The position numbers and the translations under genes are program-made. A DNA stretch of 64,000 nt from Collinsella sp. BA40 (GTDB lineage Bacteria; Actinomycetota; Coriobacteriia; Coriobacteriales; Coriobacteriaceae), in NCBI RefSeq assembly GCF_008014645.1, contig NZ_VOWY01000016.1:1-64000 (forward strand), given 5' to 3'. Positions within the stretch are counted from its first letter, which is position 1, and each line of letters opens with the position of its first letter. Positions 49,446 through 60,876 of this stretch are shown here, piece after piece. The notes beneath the pieces were generated by a model. That model ran no database searches. It saw only the letters and a program-made list of their open reading frames with translations, and was not told the origin of the DNA.

Positions 49446-52400
49446 CTACCTTGCTCCCGCCTCGTCGCGCATGGGGTAGTGCGCGGTCAGGCTGCGGAAT
49501 CGGTCGTAGAACGCCGAGAGCAGCGCTGTCACGCGCCGGCGCTTCTCCGCTTGCGGGTTGCCCTTGGCGAAGCGCGACACCGGCGGCAGGATGCTGGCCA
49601 CGGCGGTGCCCTCCTGGGGAACGCCGCCCGTCTCGAAGGCCTCGCTCACCAGTGCGCGCGTCTGATCGGGCTTGAGGTGCTCGCACTCGATGATGCCGCC
49701 GAGCTCCGTCTCCATGGACTCGCGTACGAGCTCGCGCCAGTGCGCGGAGACGACCTCGTGCCTGCGCTCTTCGCTCGCCTCCGGGTCGATCGAGAAGGTC
49801 GCGGGCGTCTCGCAGAAGCCCGCCATCTCCAGGAACCGGTCGATGAGGTCCTGCTTGTCGCGCAGCTCGGGCGACGCCGCCACGGAGCTGCGGATGCGCT
49901 CGGCGATCTCGCGGTCGCGCACGTTGTCGCCATGGCGCTTCTCCACGAGCATCAGGATGTAGTCGATGTTGATTTCCAGCTGCCGAACGAGCTCCATCTC
50001 GAAGACCAGGTCGTCGGCGATCGACTCCTTCTCCGCCTGCTCGCGGCCACGCAGCTTGTCGCGCAGGTCGAGGTACACGCTCTGGTAGTCCTGCAGCTCC
50101 CAGACGTCGATGGTGTCGTCCTCCTCGAAGCCGTCGAAGCTCGAGAGGATGTTGCGCAGGCGCAGGATCGCCGAGAACGTCTTGATGAAGTCGCGCTCGG
50201 CCTCCTCGCCCATCGGCTCGTCCAGCGCGTCGAACGAGAACGCCTCGCGCAGGTGCGCGAGCTTCTTGGCGTATTCCTCGAAGTACACGTCATAGGGCTT
50301 GAGCAGCACGATGCCGCCGGCCTTGGGGTCGCCGAACAGCCCGATGGCCTCATCCACGTTTTCCTCGAGGTTGCGGAAGCACACGACGTTGCCGAAGGTC
50401 TTCACCGAGTTGAGGATGCGGTTGGTACGGCTGAATGCTTGGATGAGGCCGTGCATGCGCAGGTTCTTGTCGACCCACAGGGTGTTGAGCGTCTTGGCAT
50501 CGAAGCCCGTGAGGAACATGTCTACCACGATGAGCAGGTCGAGGCACTCGTCTTGCGGCAGCGGCTTGCCATCGACGTCCTCGCCCTTCATGCGGCGGCT
50601 CACGTCCTTGTAGTAGCCGTCGAAGCCCTGGGAGTCCGTGGAGAAGCTCGTGGAGAACATCGCGTTGTAGTTGGCGATGGCACCATCGAGGAAATCGCGG
50701 TCCGCCTGGGGCATCCCGTCGCATTCGAGCTCCTCGTCGTCGATGAAGCCGCAGGGGTCCTCGGGCGCGTTGGGGGCGAACGAGAAGATCGTGGCTACCT
50801 TGAGGTCGCATCCCTCACGCTGGCCGATCATCTCGCGCAGCACGCGGTAGTAGGACTCAGCGGACTTGATCGAGTCGCAGGCGAGGATGGCGTTGAAGCC
50901 GCGCCGCGCGGCCCCCTTCACGCTGTACGCCTGGCCGCTGCGCTTGGTCTTGCGGTCGAAGTTATCCAGGATGTAGCCAGCGATGTTGCGCAGCCGCTCG
51001 GGGTGCAGCCAGGCGGAGTCGGTGTCGATGGCCTCGACCCGCGCATCGGTGTCTTCGGCCTTGCGGTGGAAGGTGCTCACGTAGTCGACCTTGAAGGGCA
51101 GCACGTTGCCGTCGTCGATGGCGTTCACCACGGTGTAGGTGTGCAGGCAGTCGCCGAAGGCTTGCGCGGTGGTGCGCAGCTCGGGGTCGGCGCCCGCCCC
51201 GGCGTTTTGGGCGAAGATCGGCGTGCCGGTGAAGCCGAATAGGTGGTAGTTCTTAAAGTGGCGGGTGATGGCCTTGTGCATCTCGCCGAACTGCGAGCGA
51301 TGGCACTCGTCGAAGATGAACACGGTGTGCCGGTCGAAGACCTCGCGCCTGGCGCTGGGTCGCTTGAGGTAGACCGCCAGCTTGTTGATGGTGGTCACGC
51401 AGATCTTGCGCTGCCCGAGCGGCGCCTCGAGGTTCTCGGCGAGCGCATGGGTGTTCTTGGAGCCGTTGACCGCGCCCTCTTGGAACTTGTTGTACTCCTT
51501 CATGGTCTGGTAGTCGAGGTCCTTGCGGTCCACCACGAACAGGACCTTGTCCACGCCCTCCATGCCAGCGGCGAGCTGCGCCGTCTTGAACGAGGTGAGC
51601 GTCTTGCCCGATCCGGTGGTATGCCAGATGTAGCCGCCGGCGTCGAGCGTGCCCAGGCGACGCTTGTCGTACTCGGAGACGAGGATGCGGTTGAGGATCT
51701 TCTCGCACGCGCAGATCTGGTAGGGGCGCATGACCAGGAGCGTGTTTGTCACGTCGAGCACGCAGTAGTGCGTGAGGATCATGAGCAGGGTTCCGCGCGC
51801 GAGGAACGACGCCGCGAAGGGTACCAGGTCGGCGATCTTGTGGTTGTTCGCGTCCGTCCACCAGCTGGTGAACGCGAAGCTCGCCGAGGACTTCTTGCCG
51901 CGGCGGCTGCTCTCGGTCTTCTGCCAGCGCGTGGTGTTGGAGTAGTACTTGGTGTGCGTGCCGTTGGAGATGACGAAGATCTGGACGAACTCGAACAGGC
52001 CCGACTGGGACCAGAAGCTCTCGCGCTGATAGCGCTCGATCTGGTCGAACGCCTGGCGCAGCGCCACGCCGCGGCGCTTGAGCTCGATGTGCACGAGGGG
52101 CAGGCCGTTGACGAGGACGGTCACGTCGTAGCGGTTCTTGTGCGCGCCCTCGCTGGCCTCGTATTGGTTCATGACCTGCAGGCGGTTCCTGTAGATGTGG
52201 TCGCGGTCGAGCAGCATCACGTTCTTGAGGGTGCCATTCGCGAGGGTGAAGTCGATGACGGGGTTCTTCTGGATGCGGCGCGTCTTCTCCACGATGCCCT
52301 CTGCCTTGTTGGCTACGACCTCGCGGAAGAAGCGCTCCCAGTCCTCGTCGGCGAAGGCGAAGCCGTTGAGGAGCTCGATCTGTCGGCGCAGGTTGGCGAT

Positions 52401-52616
52401 GAGTTCGGCCTCGCTGGCGGGGGAGACGCGCTCGTAGCCCTGGTCCACGAGCTGCTCGATGAGCTCCTTTTCCAACTGGGCCTCGGTTTGATAGGAGGTT
52501 GCGGCCCGCGCGACCTCGGGCACCTGCGCGCACACGGTCGAGCTGGGTCCCTCGAGGATGAGGCTGTAGGAAGGGGCGGGGGAGCCGCCCGCGAGTTCGA
52601 GGTCGTCCGTCAGCAT
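49446..52616 (-). CDS. hsdR: Type I restriction-modification system, R subunit
   Basis: A 1056-residue restriction and translocation subunit. The N-terminal nuclease domain holds Asp164 and the Glu-Leu-Lys in VHIELKRRG at about 178-180. Then come an SF2 motor with Walker A TTGSGKT and DECH (FIFDECHRSQFG), motif III FGFTGTPIF, motif VI QAFSRTNR, and the helical coupling C-terminus. The ATG at 52616 follows AAAGGAAGC; the frame is open upstream but without a ribosome site. It is separated from the other hsd genes by the toxin-like module, and has a nearby own promoter. Confidence 0.94.
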   Translation of the reverse strand: MLTDDLELAGGSPAPSYSLILEGPSSTVCAQVPEVARAATSYQTEAQLEKELIEQLVDQGYERVSPASEAELIANLRRQIELLNGFAFADEDWERFFREVVANKAEGIVEKTRRIQKNPVIDFTLANGTLKNVMLLDRDHIYRNRLQVMNQYEASEGAHKNRYDVTVLVNGLPLVHIELKRRGVALRQAFDQIERYQRESFWSQSGLFEFVQIFVISNGTHTKYYSNTTRWQKTESSRRGKKSSASFAFTSWWTDANNHKIADLVPFAASFLARGTLLMILTHYCVLDVTNTLLVMRPYQICACEKILNRILVSEYDKRRLGTLDAGGYIWHTTGSGKTLTSFKTAQLAAGMEGVDKVLFVVDRKDLDYQTMKEYNKFQEGAVNGSKNTHALAENLEAPLGQRKICVTTINKLAVYLKRPSARREVFDRHTVFIFDECHRSQFGEMHKAITRHFKNYHLFGFTGTPIFAQNAGAGADPELRTTAQAFGDCLHTYTVVNAIDDGNVLPFKVDYVSTFHRKAEDTDARVEAIDTDSAWLHPERLRNIAGYILDNFDRKTKRSGQAYSVKGAARRGFNAILACDSIKSAESYYRVLREMIGQREGCDLKVATIFSFAPNAPEDPCGFIDDEELECDGMPQADRDFLDGAIANYNAMFSTSFSTDSQGFDGYYKDVSRRMKGEDVDGKPLPQDECLDLLIVVDMFLTGFDAKTLNTLWVDKNLRMHGLIQAFSRTNRILNSVKTFGNVVCFRNLEENVDEAIGLFGDPKAGGIVLLKPYDVYFEEYAKKLAHLREAFSFDALDEPMGEEAERDFIKTFSAILRLRNILSSFDGFEEDDTIDVWELQDYQSVYLDLRDKLRGREQAEKESIADDLVFEMELVRQLEINIDYILMLVEKRHGDNVRDREIAERIRSSVAASPELRDKQDLIDRFLEMAGFCETPATFSIDPEASEERRHEVVSAHWRELVRESMETELGGIIECEHLKPDQTRALVSEAFETGGVPQEGTAVASILPPVSRFAKGNPQAEKRRRVTALLSAFYDRFRSLTAHYPMRDEAGAR

Positions 52617-52644
52617 GCCGCTTCCTTTCTGGCGTGGCCGGAGT

Positions 52645-52682
52645 GGCATGGTGGGGTCGGTTAAGGACGGCCCCACCATGCC
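52645..52682 (-). promoter_or_regulatory. Strong hairpin in the hsdR leader
   Basis: A perfect 12-bp inverted repeat GGCATGGTGGGG/CCCCACCATGCC with a 14-base loop lies 28 bases before the hsdR ATG. No T-run follows on the minus strand, so it is unlikely to terminate. It could block translation or bind a protein, which would restrict HsdR expression. Confidence 0.5.
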
Positions 52683-54447: not shown

Positions 54448-55011
54448 CTATATGCTTTCGATAAGACCGCCTCCTTTCCATGTGGCGTTATTTATGAGCC
54501 ATTGCTCGTGCGGTCGCCAGGTTTCTCCTTCGCGTTTTCGCGCAAGGGCTTGGTCTTTAGCGAAAAGTGCGCAATCGCTGCTCACCTTGAAAACCTCTGT
54601 CAAATTGAAAGCCGGATTACATTTAAGGATCAGGGGGTGGGGAGCAAGTAGATAGCCCGCAAAATAGTCGGCTTCTCTCTCGCGGTTGGGGGTGTCTTCT
54701 CGATGTTCAAGAATAATGTGACCGAGTTCATGGGCTCCGGAAAACCGAGTGCGGTTATGGTACGCGTTGCATGTGTCGTCTAAGACGATGCACGCTTGTG
54801 AATAGTTGGGCGTGCGCACGTGGAAAGCGTCGTTCGATGCGGAGCGGGCGAGCGCAAGCTCTTGGGGCTGCAGGCAGGAGTAGGGAACAAGATCGATTCC
54901 GAGCGTCTCGACTATTCGTTTGATACTTATGGGGTATTCTGTGATTCCAAAATCGGATAGCAGTTCGACCACTGCGGTTTCGATTTCGATTTCTCTTGTC
55001 CTGGACGGCAT
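54448..55011 (-). CDS. ImmA/IrrE family metallo-endopeptidase
   Basis: A 187-residue zinc peptidase with HELGH at about 84-88 (GAHELGHIILEH) and a downstream Glu in REREADYFAGYLLAP. ImmA/IrrE proteins cleave partner XRE repressors to release induction after DNA damage or mobile-element signals. The XRE gene lies directly upstream (13-base gap), so the pair is likely functional. The start ATG has AGGAAC about 10 bases before it; ATGs further upstream overlap the XRE gene. The 54272-54447 gap before DUF4417 holds no clear gene. Confidence 0.88.
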   Translation of the reverse strand: MPSRTREIEIETAVVELLSDFGITEYPISIKRIVETLGIDLVPYSCLQPQELALARSASNDAFHVRTPNYSQACIVLDDTCNAYHNRTRFSGAHELGHIILEHREDTPNREREADYFAGYLLAPHPLILKCNPAFNLTEVFKVSSDCALFAKDQALARKREGETWRPHEQWLINNATWKGGGLIESI

Positions 55012-55024
55012 TGACAATGAGTTC

Positions 55025-55330
55025 CTAACGCTTGAGTAGTGTTGTAATGAGCTGAGCGCGTTGTTCCTCTGTGAGGGAATTTGAGTTACGAGCGATAAGC
55101 TGGACAGCCCCATCGATCTCCTGCTCCTTTTGGGTGCCCAGAAGATCCGAAGGTTGGACGTCGAGTGCCTTTGCGATCCTTGCAACAACGATGGCCCGGG
55201 GCATTCTGTCTCCGCTTAGATAGCGGCTGATTGCTGCTGGAGTAAGGCCTGTGCTTAGTGCAAGTTCTTTTTGAGTGAGGTCGCGTTGGCTTAGCAACGC
55301 CGAGAGCCTCATGGGGAACAGCTCGGACAT
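55025..55330 (-). CDS. XRE family transcriptional repressor
   Basis: A 101-residue protein with a compact helix-turn-helix (LTQKELALSTGLTPAAISRYLSGDRM), typical of phage- and ICE-like repressors. It ends in a short Gln/Leu-rich tail. The ATG follows AAAGGAAT. It is the probable cleavage substrate of the ImmA/IrrE peptidase and should bind the repeated TTACC/GGTAA sequences just upstream. It likely controls the module below it, perhaps the DUF4417 and toxin-like genes. Confidence 0.88.
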   Translation of the reverse strand: MSELFPMRLSALLSQRDLTQKELALSTGLTPAAISRYLSGDRMPRAIVVARIAKALDVQPSDLLGTQKEQEIDGAVQLIARNSNSLTEEQRAQLITTLLKR

Positions 55331-55347
55331 GGGATTCCTTTCGGTAG

Positions 55348-55384
55348 TTACCAATATACGGAAATAATTACCGTATGATGGTAA
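55348..55384 (-). promoter_or_regulatory. Repeated operator-like sites upstream of the XRE gene
   Basis: TTACC and GGTAA elements recur: TTACC at 55348-55352, and a TTACC-GTATGAT-GGTAA palindrome at 55368-55384. The inner ATACGG and CCGTAT also pair with each other. The stretch is A+T-rich and overlaps the expected promoter, so autoregulation by the XRE protein is likely. Confidence 0.55.
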
Positions 55385-55453
55385 TGATAGCACAAATGGA
55401 ATCCCTAGATTGGGTTCTGGATCTTATGCCTCGCGGTAGACTACGGAGAGCGT

Positions 55454-56278
55454 TCACCCGTCCTCGGAGACCCATTCGGTCCAACCGTTTTGGCTGCCGC
55501 CGAGGACGAACACGGCGGCAGCGCTGGGCGTATCGAAGCTCACATCGTGCGCGAGACGCCATGCGCCTCCGTCGTTCGAGAGCGCTCTCTCTGCTCGCAG
55601 GGAAGCACGCAGTTCCTCGAGGCGCTGGGTGGGCCTTGCTTTGGTGCCGCATTGAACGTCGAGGTCGATTTGCGAACCGGCCAGGACGGTGAATTTGCCT
55701 GCAGATGAGTCGTATCGCCCGCGGGCGTCGATGTTGCGACGGGGCGTGTGGAACGCAAGGCCGTCGTCGGTCACGCTCTCACCAACGGCGTCGAGGTCGT
55801 ATCCCAAGACGCCCATCCTAAAGAGGATGTCCTCGTGCAGGCTTGCGATGAATGACTCTGTGTAAGGGCTCACGAACGGATTGGGGAGGTTACCGTTGTC
55901 CGTGGCGTACGAGCCATGTTCGGCGATGTAGGCGATCATTTGTCTCTCAAGGCCGCTCACCACGTCGAGCGAGAATTCGCTATCGGGTCCGAGGAACATA
56001 ACCGCCGTGTTCCACCAGCCCTTCTTTGCGTAATGGTCATCCAGGCGGGAGATTCCTTGGACCGTCTGGCCGGCATAGACGCGACGCAGGCGCCCCTTGT
56101 TATCGTCAAGCAGATAGTAGACGCCGCGCTTGGGAATCTCGGGCAGCTTCTTTGCCTGCGCGAGCAGGTCGCGGGGAATCACGACGGTCACAAGCGTGGA
56201 ACCCGTCAGGCGGCAGATCTTGATGCCGTTGGGCTCGCCATCGATCAGCTGCAAGGTGAGCGTCTTGAGGTTGATCAT
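55454..56278 (-). CDS. GIY-YIG nuclease domain protein with C-terminal DUF4357
   Basis: A 274-residue protein. A GIY-YIG-like region is seen at about 50-75 (GVYYLL, then RVYAGQT), followed by a helix-rich region and a C-terminal DUF4357-like motif (DTPSAAAVFVLGGSQNGWTEW). Proteins with this pair are often found next to type I R-M genes, and their role in defence is not known. The start ATG overlaps the hsdS stop by four bases (ATGA), so it is translated together with the specificity subunit. Confidence 0.82.
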   Translation of the reverse strand: MINLKTLTLQLIDGEPNGIKICRLTGSTLVTVVIPRDLLAQAKKLPEIPKRGVYYLLDDNKGRLRRVYAGQTVQGISRLDDHYAKKGWWNTAVMFLGPDSEFSLDVVSGLERQMIAYIAEHGSYATDNGNLPNPFVSPYTESFIASLHEDILFRMGVLGYDLDAVGESVTDDGLAFHTPRRNIDARGRYDSSAGKFTVLAGSQIDLDVQCGTKARPTQRLEELRASLRAERALSNDGGAWRLAHDVSFDTPSAAAVFVLGGSQNGWTEWVSEDG

Positions 56279-57459
56279 GCTGCCGACTCCTTTCGGGGAA
56301 AGCTGAGGAGCTTGTCGCGGTAGTACTCGTATTGCTGGCGGCGCGCCTCGATCTCGGCGGGGAGGCCGTCGGTGAGCGAGGTGGTGAGGGCGTCGAATCG
56401 GTCGAGGATGTCGACGACCTTCTGCTGCGTCTCGAGAGAGGGGACCAAGAACTCGACTTCTTTGAGTTTTCCCACGGCGAGTCCTGGTTGGGCTCCAGCT
56501 GATTTATACCTGTTCAAATTTCTGTTTACGAGCATGTGATAGGCATAGTCTTGGAGCACTAAATCGCTGCATGTCGCCACAACCGCATGCTCGGTGGCAT
56601 AGAAATCCTCTTCGACGCGATAGACATTTCCGCACAAAGCGCCTTGCCTTCCGATGAGAAGCGCCTTGCCGGAGTGGCTTGGTGACTCGACGAAACCACG
56701 AAGGCCATTTCCTCCATAGCAAGGTGTCGTCTGAACGGCGCTCTTGCTTTCAGAGATGTTGCTGGCGGCGATGTGCGTACCCGCCTTCATGTAGAAGAGG
56801 TCTTCCATTTTCAGCCATCTACTCTCTCTCTCTCTCTCTCTCTCGAAGGAGAGCAGCTTGTCGCGGTAGTAGGCGTACTGGGCTTTCCTTGCCTCCAGCT
56901 CCGCTTCCAGCTCCGCTTCCAGCTCCGCGAATTTGTCAAGGATTCTGACAATTTCTTTTTGGATTTCGATGGGCGGGATGGGTGCCTCAAATGTGGCCAT
57001 GGCATCGCCGCTGACGCGAAGAACTTTAGTGCCCGTGATTCTGCGTTTCTTCTGCGCTTGGAACGAAGCGGAGCAGAAAAGGTAGGCCATGTATTTTGGG
57101 TCTGCCGAGTGCGAATAAATGTAGGCGTCGCCGCTCACTGCACACGGCTCATCTCCGAGCCATGCGCAACATTTGCAGACATCATCTTCGTTTTCACTGG
57201 TGGTCGCAATGATGAGGTCGCCATGCTTCGCCTTCTTACGAGTTGCATAGAGTTCTTCCGAGATGAGCGACTTCGTTTCCGAAGCTTCAAGTCCGTAGTA
57301 GGTGTAAATCTGCCCATAGTGGATGCATGGTTTACCGTCATCTGTGAAATCAGATTTCTGAATACCGGCACCGCGCGTAAATGTGCCGATATCCCCAAGC
57401 CGCTTGTACTCCACGCCGTCCGGGCAGAGCTCGGCAATCATCTCGTCGATTCTACTCAT
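56275..57459 (-). CDS. hsdS: Type I restriction-modification system, S (specificity) subunit
   Basis: A 394-residue subunit with two target-recognition domains (about 1-150 and 215-340), each followed by a helical spacer. The central conserved region has a 4-residue LEAE-type unit three times, then QYAYYRDKLLSF and a RERERERES run, and the C-terminal spacer ends EYYRDKLLSF. The RERERE run is coded by the (CT)n tract at 56822-56844, so slippage changes the frame. Its start overlaps the AlbA_2 stop by eight bases. It should decide the site bound by HsdM and HsdR. It is in frame over its full length here. Confidence 0.94.
   Translation of the reverse strand: MSRIDEMIAELCPDGVEYKRLGDIGTFTRGAGIQKSDFTDDGKPCIHYGQIYTYYGLEASETKSLISEELYATRKKAKHGDLIIATTSENEDDVCKCCAWLGDEPCAVSGDAYIYSHSADPKYMAYLFCSASFQAQKKRRITGTKVLRVSGDAMATFEAPIPPIEIQKEIVRILDKFAELEAELEAELEARKAQYAYYRDKLLSFERERERESRWLKMEDLFYMKAGTHIAASNISESKSAVQTTPCYGGNGLRGFVESPSHSGKALLIGRQGALCGNVYRVEEDFYATEHAVVATCSDLVLQDYAYHMLVNRNLNRYKSAGAQPGLAVGKLKEVEFLVPSLETQQKVVDILDRFDALTTSLTDGLPAEIEARRQQYEYYRDKLLSFPRKESAA
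56822..56844. repeat. (CT)11.5 dinucleotide tract inside hsdS
   Basis: Twenty-three alternating bases, reading (GA)n on the coding strand, code for the alternating Arg-Glu stretch between the two recognition halves of HsdS. A gain or loss of one unit would put the second half out of frame. This is a typical phase-variation tract. Confidence 0.9.
56894..56929. repeat. Three 12-bp repeats coding LEAE units in hsdS
   Basis: TCCAGCTCCGCT is found at 56894-56905 and 56906-56917, and TCCAGCTCCGCG at 56918-56929. Each adds four residues in the central spacer helix. In other HsdS families the number of such units sets the spacing between half-sites, so copy-number change could alter specificity. Confidence 0.85.
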
Positions 57460-59035
57460 TGCTATCTTTCTTGTCGGAGTCGGTGCTGTTCATGGGATTA
57501 TCCGAATTGAGAGTGGAGAGGGTATTCCGTCCCTGTTCCGTTAGTCGATATTTCTGCAGGCGGCTTTTGGGTTTGTCGGGAACGGTGCGCTCGATGAGCC
57601 CGGCGTCGAGGGCGGGATTAAGATAGTTTTCCCTAAAGGTGGGGCGATGGGTTAGGCGCAGGGCAGTCATCGCGTCGATGGCGCTGGTCTCCGAGTCCTG
57701 GATGTAGGCGAGGAGTGCAGCGACTTGGTCGGTGACTTGGTCGGTGACTTGGTCGGTGACTTGGTCGGTGACTTGGTCGGTGACTTGGGGGGCGGCTGGG
57801 TCGATGTCGGGCACTGCTTCATCCTCGGTTGCTACGACGCCCTTAAGGTCTGCCAGCCTGACCTGCGCAATCGTGCCAGCCTGTGCATCCCAGCGCATGT
57901 TGTACAGGGTCACGTAGAACGCATCACAATAGTTTTTGAACGTGGGCTTGAATTGCGGCTTGTAGGTCTCTTCGCGCGCGGTTGATTGGCAAATGAGCAT
58001 GAGGCCGGAACCTCGGCGCTCCATGAAGTTCATGCGGCCCATGACATCGGCGAGGATTGGGTTCTTGCGATGGCTCTTTTGTCGTTGGTCGCCAGCACGC
58101 TCCAAGTCGATATCCGCCGGCACGGTGCCAGGGGACGAGATCTCGATCTTGTCATCGTAGATGTCGATGCTGACCTCCGATCCGAGGTCGAGGTAGTTTC
58201 GGTGCACCAGCGCATTCACGAGCGCCTCGGTGATGGCCCTCTCGTTATAGCAGAGCAGCTCCGCGTGGTCATCTACCCGCTTGACCCACTGGCGATAGTT
58301 GTAGCGGCGGATGAACTCCTCGGCATTGTGCAGCAGCATGGTGAGGCCGCCAGAGTACTCCTCGGTATCCAGGATGTGAGTCTTGTCCATACCATCCCAC
58401 CTTGTGGCAAAGACGCGCGAATGCCTCAAGAGGGGTTGGTCGGCAAACGCGGCGCCGGCGTAGGTGAGGTGCTCGCCATCCTCGGTCACGAGGCCGAACG
58501 AATGGTAGTCCTCGTCCACAAGGTCTATTCCTGCGCGCTGGGCGAAGGTCGCGCGCAGGTGCGTAAAGCTCGCCCTCGATACGGGAATGTGGGAATCAAG
58601 GGAATCCCAGGTGCGGTGCGTGCCTTCCAGCACGAGTCCCAGCAGCTTCTCGCGCGGGGCGAGCTCGCTTCTATCGCCGTGACGGACGTAGACCTCACGT
58701 CTGCCGTCGCCGATGCAGAAATAGGGCTTGGAATCTCCCTGTTCAACATTGAGTATGACAACGGCCGCGGTTTCCACGGTCTCGACCTCAAGCGCGAATT
58801 CGGGAACCGGGTCTATGCGGTCGTGAATGACTTGCGAGATGAACTCAATATCGGCTTGAGGATCGGTGACGCCGCAGGGCTCGTGCGTGTCGTCGTCAAC
58901 GCCGAACAGAATCGACCCGCCTTGCGTATTCGCAAAAGCAGCGACGCTCTTCAGCCAGCTTTTTGGTTTCTTGCGTTCCACGCAGCGCTTGAAGTCGCAC
59001 GTGGTTGTTTCTGCCGCGAGGTGCTCCATGTCCAT
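57452..59035 (-). CDS. AlbA_2 (Schlafen-type) DNA-binding/ATP-binding domain protein
   Basis: A 527-residue protein between hsdM and hsdS. The N-terminal AlbA_2 domain (DFKRCVERKKPKSWLKSVAAFANTQ and GGSILFGVDDD) is followed by the ATP-binding C-terminal region (ALVNALVHRNY and ERRGSGL). A VTDQ tandem repeat (about residues 415-435) comes next, and a winged-helix-like C-terminus. Such genes are common in type I R-M operons of gut bacteria, and their role there is unclear. The ATG follows GGAGGGG just after the hsdM stop. The VTDQ linker is coded by a 12-bp repeat that may change in length. Confidence 0.85.
   Translation of the reverse strand: MDMEHLAAETTTCDFKRCVERKKPKSWLKSVAAFANTQGGSILFGVDDDTHEPCGVTDPQADIEFISQVIHDRIDPVPEFALEVETVETAAVVILNVEQGDSKPYFCIGDGRREVYVRHGDRSELAPREKLLGLVLEGTHRTWDSLDSHIPVSRASFTHLRATFAQRAGIDLVDEDYHSFGLVTEDGEHLTYAGAAFADQPLLRHSRVFATRWDGMDKTHILDTEEYSGGLTMLLHNAEEFIRRYNYRQWVKRVDDHAELLCYNERAITEALVNALVHRNYLDLGSEVSIDIYDDKIEISSPGTVPADIDLERAGDQRQKSHRKNPILADVMGRMNFMERRGSGLMLICQSTAREETYKPQFKPTFKNYCDAFYVTLYNMRWDAQAGTIAQVRLADLKGVVATEDEAVPDIDPAAPQVTDQVTDQVTDQVTDQVTDQVAALLAYIQDSETSAIDAMTALRLTHRPTFRENYLNPALDAGLIERTVPDKPKSRLQKYRLTEQGRNTLSTLNSDNPMNSTDSDKKDSNE
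57722..57788. repeat. 12-bp repeat coding VTDQ units
   Basis: GACTTGGTCGGT occurs five times without a gap from 57722 to 57781, plus a partial copy to 57788. It stays in frame because each unit is 12 bases, so a change in copy number would lengthen or shorten the linker in the AlbA_2 protein without a frameshift. Confidence 0.9.
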
Positions 59036-59038
59036 CGC

Positions 59039-60607
59039 TTACCCCTCCAGGTCGGCGACGATGGCGTCGAGCTGCTCGCGCAGCTCCTGCTGGCGCGCCA
59101 CGATGCCCTTGATGCGCGCGTTGAGCTCCACGATGTCGATCTTCTCGCGCGTGTCCTCTTTCTCGACCCACGTGGACACGGAGAGGTTGTACTTGTTCTC
59201 GCCGCCCAGCTCGTCGATGCCCACGAGGTGCGAGAGGTACTGCTCCTCGGTGCGCTCCTGCACCAGCGCGTTGATCTTCTCGATGTGCTCGGGCATGAGC
59301 TTGTTCTTGTTGCCCACGTGCTCAAAGAGGTTGGACGCGTCGATGAACAGCACCTTGTCGTCTGTCTTGGACTTGGAGAGCACGATGATGCAGGTGGCGA
59401 TGGTCACGCCGAAGAAGAGGTTGGCGGGCAGCTGGATGACGGCCTCAACGTAGTTGCCCTCCACCAGGTACTTGCGGATCTTCTGCTCGGCGCCACCGCG
59501 GTACAGCACACCCGGGAACTCGACGATCGCCGCACGCCCCTTGGACGAGAGCCACGAGAGCATGTGCATGGTGAAGGCGAGGTCGGCCTTGGACTTGGGC
59601 GCGAGCACGCCGGCGGGTGCGAAGCGCGGGTCGTTGATGAGGGTGGGGTCGTCGTCGCCGATCCACTTGGTGCTGTAGGGCGGGTTGGACACGATGGCGT
59701 CGAAGGGCTCGTCGTCCCAGTGCATGGGGTTGATGAGCGTGTCGCCGCGCTCGATGTTGAACTTATCGAACGGCACATGGTGCAAGAACATGTTGATGCG
59801 GCACAGGTTGTAGGTGGTGGGGTTGATCTCCTGGCCGAAGTAGCCCTGGCGGATGTTCTCGGTGCCCAGGATCTTGGCGAACTTGAGCAGCAGCGAGCCC
59901 GAGCCGCAGGCCGGGTCGTACACCTTGTTGATGGCGGTCTTGTTGCCGATGACGATGCGCGCGAGCAGCTCCGAGACCTCCTGCGGGGTGAAGAACTCGC
60001 CGCCCGACTTGCCCGCGCTGCTGGCGTACATGTTCATGAGGTACTCGTAGGCGTCGCCGAACAGGTCGATCTGTGCGTCGCGCACACGTCCGAAGTCCAG
60101 GTCGCGGATGCCGGTGATGATCTTGGCCAGGCGGGTGATGCGCTCCTCGAGCGTGGCACCGAGTTTGTTGGAGGTTACGTCCACGTCGTCGAACAGGCCC
60201 TTGAAGTCCTTCTCGGACGAGCAGCCCACACTTGACCCTTCGATCGATTTGAAGATCTCGGCAACGTGGATGTTGAGCTCGGGGTCCTTCTCGGGCGCTT
60301 TGGCGACGTTTTGGAAGAGCTGGGAGGGGAGGATGAAGTAGCCCTTGAGCTCGACCAGGTCCTCGCGGACGCCCTCCGCCTCCTCGTCGGCGAGGTCGGC
60401 GTAGGAGAAATCGGGGTTGCCGGCAGCGCGCTCGTCCTCGTCGATGTATTCCGCCAGGTCCTCGGAGATGAAGCGGTAGAACAGGAAGCACAGGATATAT
60501 GCCTTGAAATCCCAGCTGTCCACGGCGCCGCGGACCTCGTCGGCGATTTTCCAGATGGCTTTGTGGAGCTCGGTGCGCTGAGTCTCGCGGTTCGACGGGG
60601 CTGCCAA
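59039..60607 (-). CDS. hsdM: Type I restriction-modification system, M subunit
   Basis: An N6-adenine methyltransferase subunit, about 522 residues. The N-terminal HsdM_N helical domain ([15 protein letters not shown]) is followed by SAM motif I ([13 protein letters not shown]), the catalytic NPPY (IVSNPPYS) and a C-terminal coiled coil that meets HsdS. No ATG with a good ribosome site was found; the TTG at 60607 lies nine bases after AAAGAGG and is chosen, although TTG at 60613 is close by. It heads the operon hsdM-AlbA_2-hsdS-GIY-YIG. Confidence 0.93.
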
Positions 60608-60876
60608 GGTCAAGCACCTCTTTCTTGCCGGCGGCTCGCGCGGCGCAGGAATGGGCGTACAGTTGGAATCAGTGTAACCCCTCGTGCGGACATCGCGCGG
60701 CGTCGTTCCGTCCGTCCCCCGCTTCCTAGGTGGGGATGCGTATGCTTTGCTGTGTCTAGCTACGGTTATCCAGCAGCGCACGATGAGCATCATGAGGGTT
60801 GGCATGGCGGAAACTATAGGAAGAGTGTCCCCGGCAAGCGCATTCGTCGATTGAACGAGTTTTAGGAGGCATCGGA
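60608..60876. other. Divergent region between hsdM and the small L7/L12-like gene
   Basis: About 270 bases with the promoters of both units. A TACACT-like -10 for hsdM is at about 60671-60676 on the minus strand. No further gene or repeat was recognised; a short GATGAGCATC palindrome is at about 60781. Confidence 0.4.

Follow-up and report, generated by a model that had tools for sequence, protein, structure and literature searches.

The window, a 64-kb stretch of DNA from Collinsella sp. BA40, contains hsdR, hsdM and hsdS genes together and thus codes for a type I restriction-modification system. The methyltransferase subunit is encoded by hsdM (59039–60805, minus strand; TIGR00497, E=1.6e-205; Pfam N6_Mtase and HsdM_N), whose true start probably lies downstream of the ORF start because the HsdM homology begins at residue 76. 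The restriction subunit, which carries an EcoR124_C domain, is encoded by hsdR (49446–52679, minus strand; TIGR00348, E=1.2e-150; PF12008, E=3.9e-52). Both HsdM and HsdR are presumed to be active from their homology. Several other genes are interspersed in this region. Between hsdM and hsdS lies a gene with domain matches to AlbA_2, HATPase_c_4 and Fic-like_C (57452–59035, minus strand); it contains a 12-bp repeat encoding DQVT in 5.6 perfect copies (57722–57788), a third in-frame slippable repeat of the hsd gene cluster. An XRE regulator and an ImmA/IrrE-like peptidase form a pair between hsdS and hsdR (54448–55393), with capH and capP as best PADLOC matches, and a gene containing DUF4357 (55454–56278; best PADLOC match PDC-S14) shares 4 nt with the end of hsdS.

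The specificity subunit gene, hsdS (56275–57459, minus strand), codes for 394 amino acids with two stretches of Methylase_S similarity and is in frame (ON) as assembled. It is the only Methylase_S gene in the 1.93-Mb assembly. Sequence and fold searches retrieve S subunits, including those of EcoR124I (7bst), PacII, EcoKI and T. tengcongensis. Target-recognition domain 1 (about residues 1–163; 56971–57459), delimited by the Methylase_S matches and the structure model, is followed by a central conserved helix (residues 164–204; 56848–56970), supported by the model and by conserved alignment columns, whose last residues are YAYYRDKLLS. Target-recognition domain 2 (about residues 214–341; 56437–56820) comes next and then, according to alignment and model, the C-terminal conserved helices (56275–56436), which end in YEYYRDKLLSF and are the partner of the central helix.

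The original prediction that a (CT)11.5 tract and 12-bp LEAE repeats occur in one hsdS gene was confirmed: both repeats are perfect, both lie inside the single ORF, and neither pattern appeared in any of 100 dinucleotide-preserving shuffles of the window. The (CT)11.5 of the plus strand (56822–56844) reads as 23 nt of perfect GAGAGA... on the hsdS coding strand, that is, a frame-shifting (GA)11.5 tract that encodes ERERERE (residues 206–212) in the linker between the helix and the second recognition domain; it is the sole run of (GA)8 or longer in the assembly. The LEAE array (unit TCCAGCTCCGCT, 2.9 copies with 100% matches; 56894–56928, minus strand) is located 49 nt upstream of the GA run in the reading direction of hsdS, inside the long spacer helix, where it aligns with the TAEL repeats of EcoR124. 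In a structure model based on an alignment of 45 homologues (mean pLDDT 92.6, dropping to 70 at residues 201–210), one helix spanning residues 164–204 holds the LEAE repeats, the ERERERE stretch falls in a coil (205–213) that is among the least confident spots of the model, and residue 214 is the first of domain 2.

Frames computed for different tract lengths give two classes of product. With n or n±3 GA units, HsdS has 392–396 amino acids; with n±1, n±2 or n±4 units, it has 210–218, corresponding to recognition domain 1 and its long helix, so that domain 2 is absent at two of three tract lengths. The gain or loss of one unit brings a stop 0–4 codons from the tract (product of 216 or 212 amino acids). 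No stop can come from the tract itself, which encodes Glu-Arg repeats in whichever frame it is read. The GA tract determines if the two recognition domains are made as one protein.

The genomic background may favour such length changes. Neither MutS_I nor MutL_C had a match in this genome, and MutS_I was found in 0 of 60 genomes of relatives, while the MutS/MutL search was positive in 11 of 14 control genomes, E. coli among them. The genome has a weak partial match to NucS; mycobacterial NucS is not known to correct small insertions and deletions. Slippage of dinucleotides may therefore largely escape correction.

Tracts and junctions in homologous hsdS genes

Runs of (GA)8 occur in 27 of 397 genomes of the order, and in six of these 27 the run lies in hsdS right after the end of a conserved helix. 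The gene is in frame in two of them (the window gene and L134) and out of frame in the others (L126, L131, L132 and L138). Among the tract-bearing homologues of the order, the LEAE copy number exceeds that of the window gene by one in L126 and falls short of it by one in L131. Three further genomes of the 27 (L117, L127 and L136) have a (GA)n tract in other DNA methylase genes (N6_N4_Mtase), type III mod-like; in L117 and L127 it is situated near the gene start. Searches for a second allele of the window hsdS found none, the nearest relative, including within the genus, being 60% identical. A virus scan yielded five distant matches, and phage records seven distant matches only.

To survey the junctions more broadly, we used 80 hsdS loci gathered by protein similarity to the window HsdS. 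They contain 30 frame-shifting repeats in or beside hsdS, 27 of which start no more than 75 nt beyond a YYRDxLLxF-type motif, a zone that represents 11% of the searched length. The corresponding binomial value (4e-23) overstates the certainty of this position bias, since the genes are related and the 75-nt zone was chosen when the data had already been looked at once; one of the 27 junction tracts, a poly-A at a gene end, is perhaps incidental. The units found at the junction (GA, AC, G, C, GCAA, CAGA, ACAG and GCCT) differ between homologues, an argument for their having arisen more than once. In 15 of the 80 loci a first-junction tract is accompanied by perfect 12-bp repeats. Homologues from E. 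coli, Klebsiella and Salinivibrio plasmids have TAEL-type repeats, with no junction tract in the five examined, and were therefore left aside as material for a population test.

In every out-of-frame copy that could be followed (11 of 11), the next domain is intact in the shifted frame (180–227 amino acids) and has its own conserved helix at the end, unlike a permanently broken gene, which would not be expected to keep such a domain. These comparisons argue strongly for switching. They also bear on the possibility that the repeats are neutral, or stem from misassembly, and switch nothing. The tract length in the window gene is a reading from one assembly, and one genome of the species is available, which would be compatible with such an explanation; yet differing repeat units at the same place in distant phyla, together with downstream domains kept intact out of frame, make it extremely unlikely.

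A variant of this arrangement is found in hsdS loci with three recognition domains (L064, L076, L084, L089, L103, L104, L105 and L132), in which a slippable tract comes after the second of the conserved helices. Most of them have the third domain out of frame; in L084 a single ORF encodes all three. In two other loci (L065 and L094), the contigs stop within the tetranucleotide tract that follows the second helix; the repeat probably broke the assembly there. We see an even chance that the junctions after the YYRDxLLxF helices of type IC genes are recurrent, probably convergent, sites of phase variation, and that in a subset, where the tract lies behind domain 2, slippage decides if translation continues into a third domain (two-domain versus three-domain HsdS). 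The window gene is of the first sort and belongs to bacteria without detectable MutS.

A probable switch placed between two half subunits

We consider it likely that the locus encodes a type IC-like restriction-modification system whose hsdS is phase-variable through slippage of a GA tract placed between two half subunits. With the tract in frame, a single 394-aa HsdS with two different recognition domains would direct methylation to a bipartite asymmetric motif. Out of frame, at two of three lengths, translation would yield a half subunit of about 210–218 amino acids made of domain 1 and the spacer helix; two such halves, associated with HsdM, would methylate an interrupted palindrome built of the domain-1 half-site. 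We infer slippage of the GA tract in this strain, activity of the short form and the resulting changes of motif. The short product breaks off after the first conserved helix, as does the half subunit of the gonococcal system NgoAV, a form with proven activity; hence the expectation of a palindromic motif.

Alternatively, the tract might act as a plain ON/OFF switch, the truncated HsdS being inactive and the out-of-frame state lacking type I methylation and restriction. The protein is indeed truncated at two of three tract lengths, and many gonococcal NgoAV loci are predicted to be inactive, though via additional mutations (PMC9577141). However, the truncation spares the whole first domain and the spacer helix, which is the design of the active NgoAV and EcoDXXI halves, and the tracts are concentrated behind the helix end instead of being scattered over the gene, a placement that an off switch would not need. 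We therefore regard the ON/OFF explanation as unlikely. By analogy with NgoAV, EcoDXXI and EcoR124, in which half subunits work as homodimers with a palindromic target, a change of motif seems likelier than a loss of activity. The predicted toggling of the second half of HsdS by the tract thus holds in so far as the tract sets the joining of domain 2, but the out-of-frame form is probably not a simple loss of the second half.

A different possibility is that ribosomes in the out-of-frame state resume translation at an ATG a short distance beyond the tract (KMEDL), so that both halves are made as separate proteins and AA, AB and BB enzymes coexist in a cell. This ATG marks the beginning of domain 2 and is preceded by the purine-rich GA tract, and co-expressed EcoDXXI halves restore wild-type activity (PMC3874165). 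Nevertheless, such a start is not conserved: most homologues lack one in the vicinity or offer just a GTG or TTG within the domain. Re-initiation at domain 2 was consequently rejected as a general mechanism; for the window gene we hold it very unlikely.

The LEAE repeats had been proposed to change the gap between the recognised half-sites, and a change in copy number would shift it by about 1 bp per copy. The helix sets the spacing in EcoR124-type enzymes and copy numbers differ between homologues, in agreement with that proposal. Such changes are nonetheless expected to be rare, as the array, with only about three copies (fewer than three complete ones), is a weak slippage substrate and ought to change length much more rarely than the GA tract.

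Slippage of the tract, if it occurs, would divide a clone of this bacterium, a likely inhabitant of the gut, into subpopulations that differ in methylation and restriction specificity, with effects on phage resistance and DNA uptake and perhaps on gene expression. A slippable run just after a YYRDxLLxF motif provides a rule for finding such switches, and out-of-frame hsdS copies should not be annotated as pseudogenes.

Comparison with known systems

The window HsdS is homologous to that of EcoR124 (PDB 7bst, E=5.8e-34) and has tandem four-residue repeats in its central conserved region, as expected for type IC (EcoR124-like) enzymes. The window HsdR has the EcoR124_C domain, the repeats occupy the same helix position as in EcoR124, and in the alignment the spacer helix has as many residues as the 7bst EcoR124 sequence, the GA-encoded residues falling in the linker before domain 2. 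In EcoR124, TAEL repeats set the gap between half-sites (PMC3874165), but no frame-shifting tract has been described there, unlike in the window hsdS. The halves of EcoR124 and EcoDXXI, the latter known to be active (PMC3874165), arose via deletion or transposon insertion, as opposed to a frameshift in a tract.

Slippable repeats are shared with other phase-variable hsdS genes: in a REBASE survey (Atack et al. 2020, as cited in PMC9577141), 7.9% of hsdS genes were reported to have slippable simple-sequence repeats. Mycoplasma pneumoniae also has 12-bp repeats in the dimerisation helix, encoding AELS/TELS, with copy numbers that differ between strains and resequenced stocks (PMC4537597). Its hsdS genes, which are numerous, are not known to contain a GA tract, and it has no intact hsdR.

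The closest parallel is NgoAV of N. gonorrhoeae. Like the window hsdS, it has, in one hsdS gene, a central conserved region with tandem four-residue repeats and, downstream of them, a frame-shifting tract. In the window gene, the tract lies just after the central helix and truncation leaves domain 1 and the helix, matching NgoAV, whose tract position we take from the papers. NgoAV hsdS has 0–3 LEAT repeats and a poly-G tract, with the motifs GACN6TGC, GACN7TGC and GCAN8TGC (PMC6789123), and its polyG length ranges from 6 to 9 across 92 strains (PMC9577141). Untruncated strains with one or two LEAT repeats methylate GACN6TGC and GACN7TGC, and the naturally truncated HsdS, which ends after domain 1 as the short form of the window HsdS would, recognises GCAN8TGC (PMC6789123, PMC9577141). 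The two systems differ in the tract, poly-G in Neisseria versus GA in a coriobacterium, and in the AlbA_2 gene inserted between hsdM and hsdS in the window cluster. Moreover, the repeat combinations of NgoAV (hsdS1/hsdS2) have been tied to three methylation motifs, whereas the window system is known from its sequence. The two-repeat hsdS design was therefore already known from NgoAV, complete with methylomes, and the window gene is a further example of it. The three-domain variant seen in homologues may be less known, and the junction bias across phyla, together with the homologues that have a third domain behind the tract, may be new to specialists.
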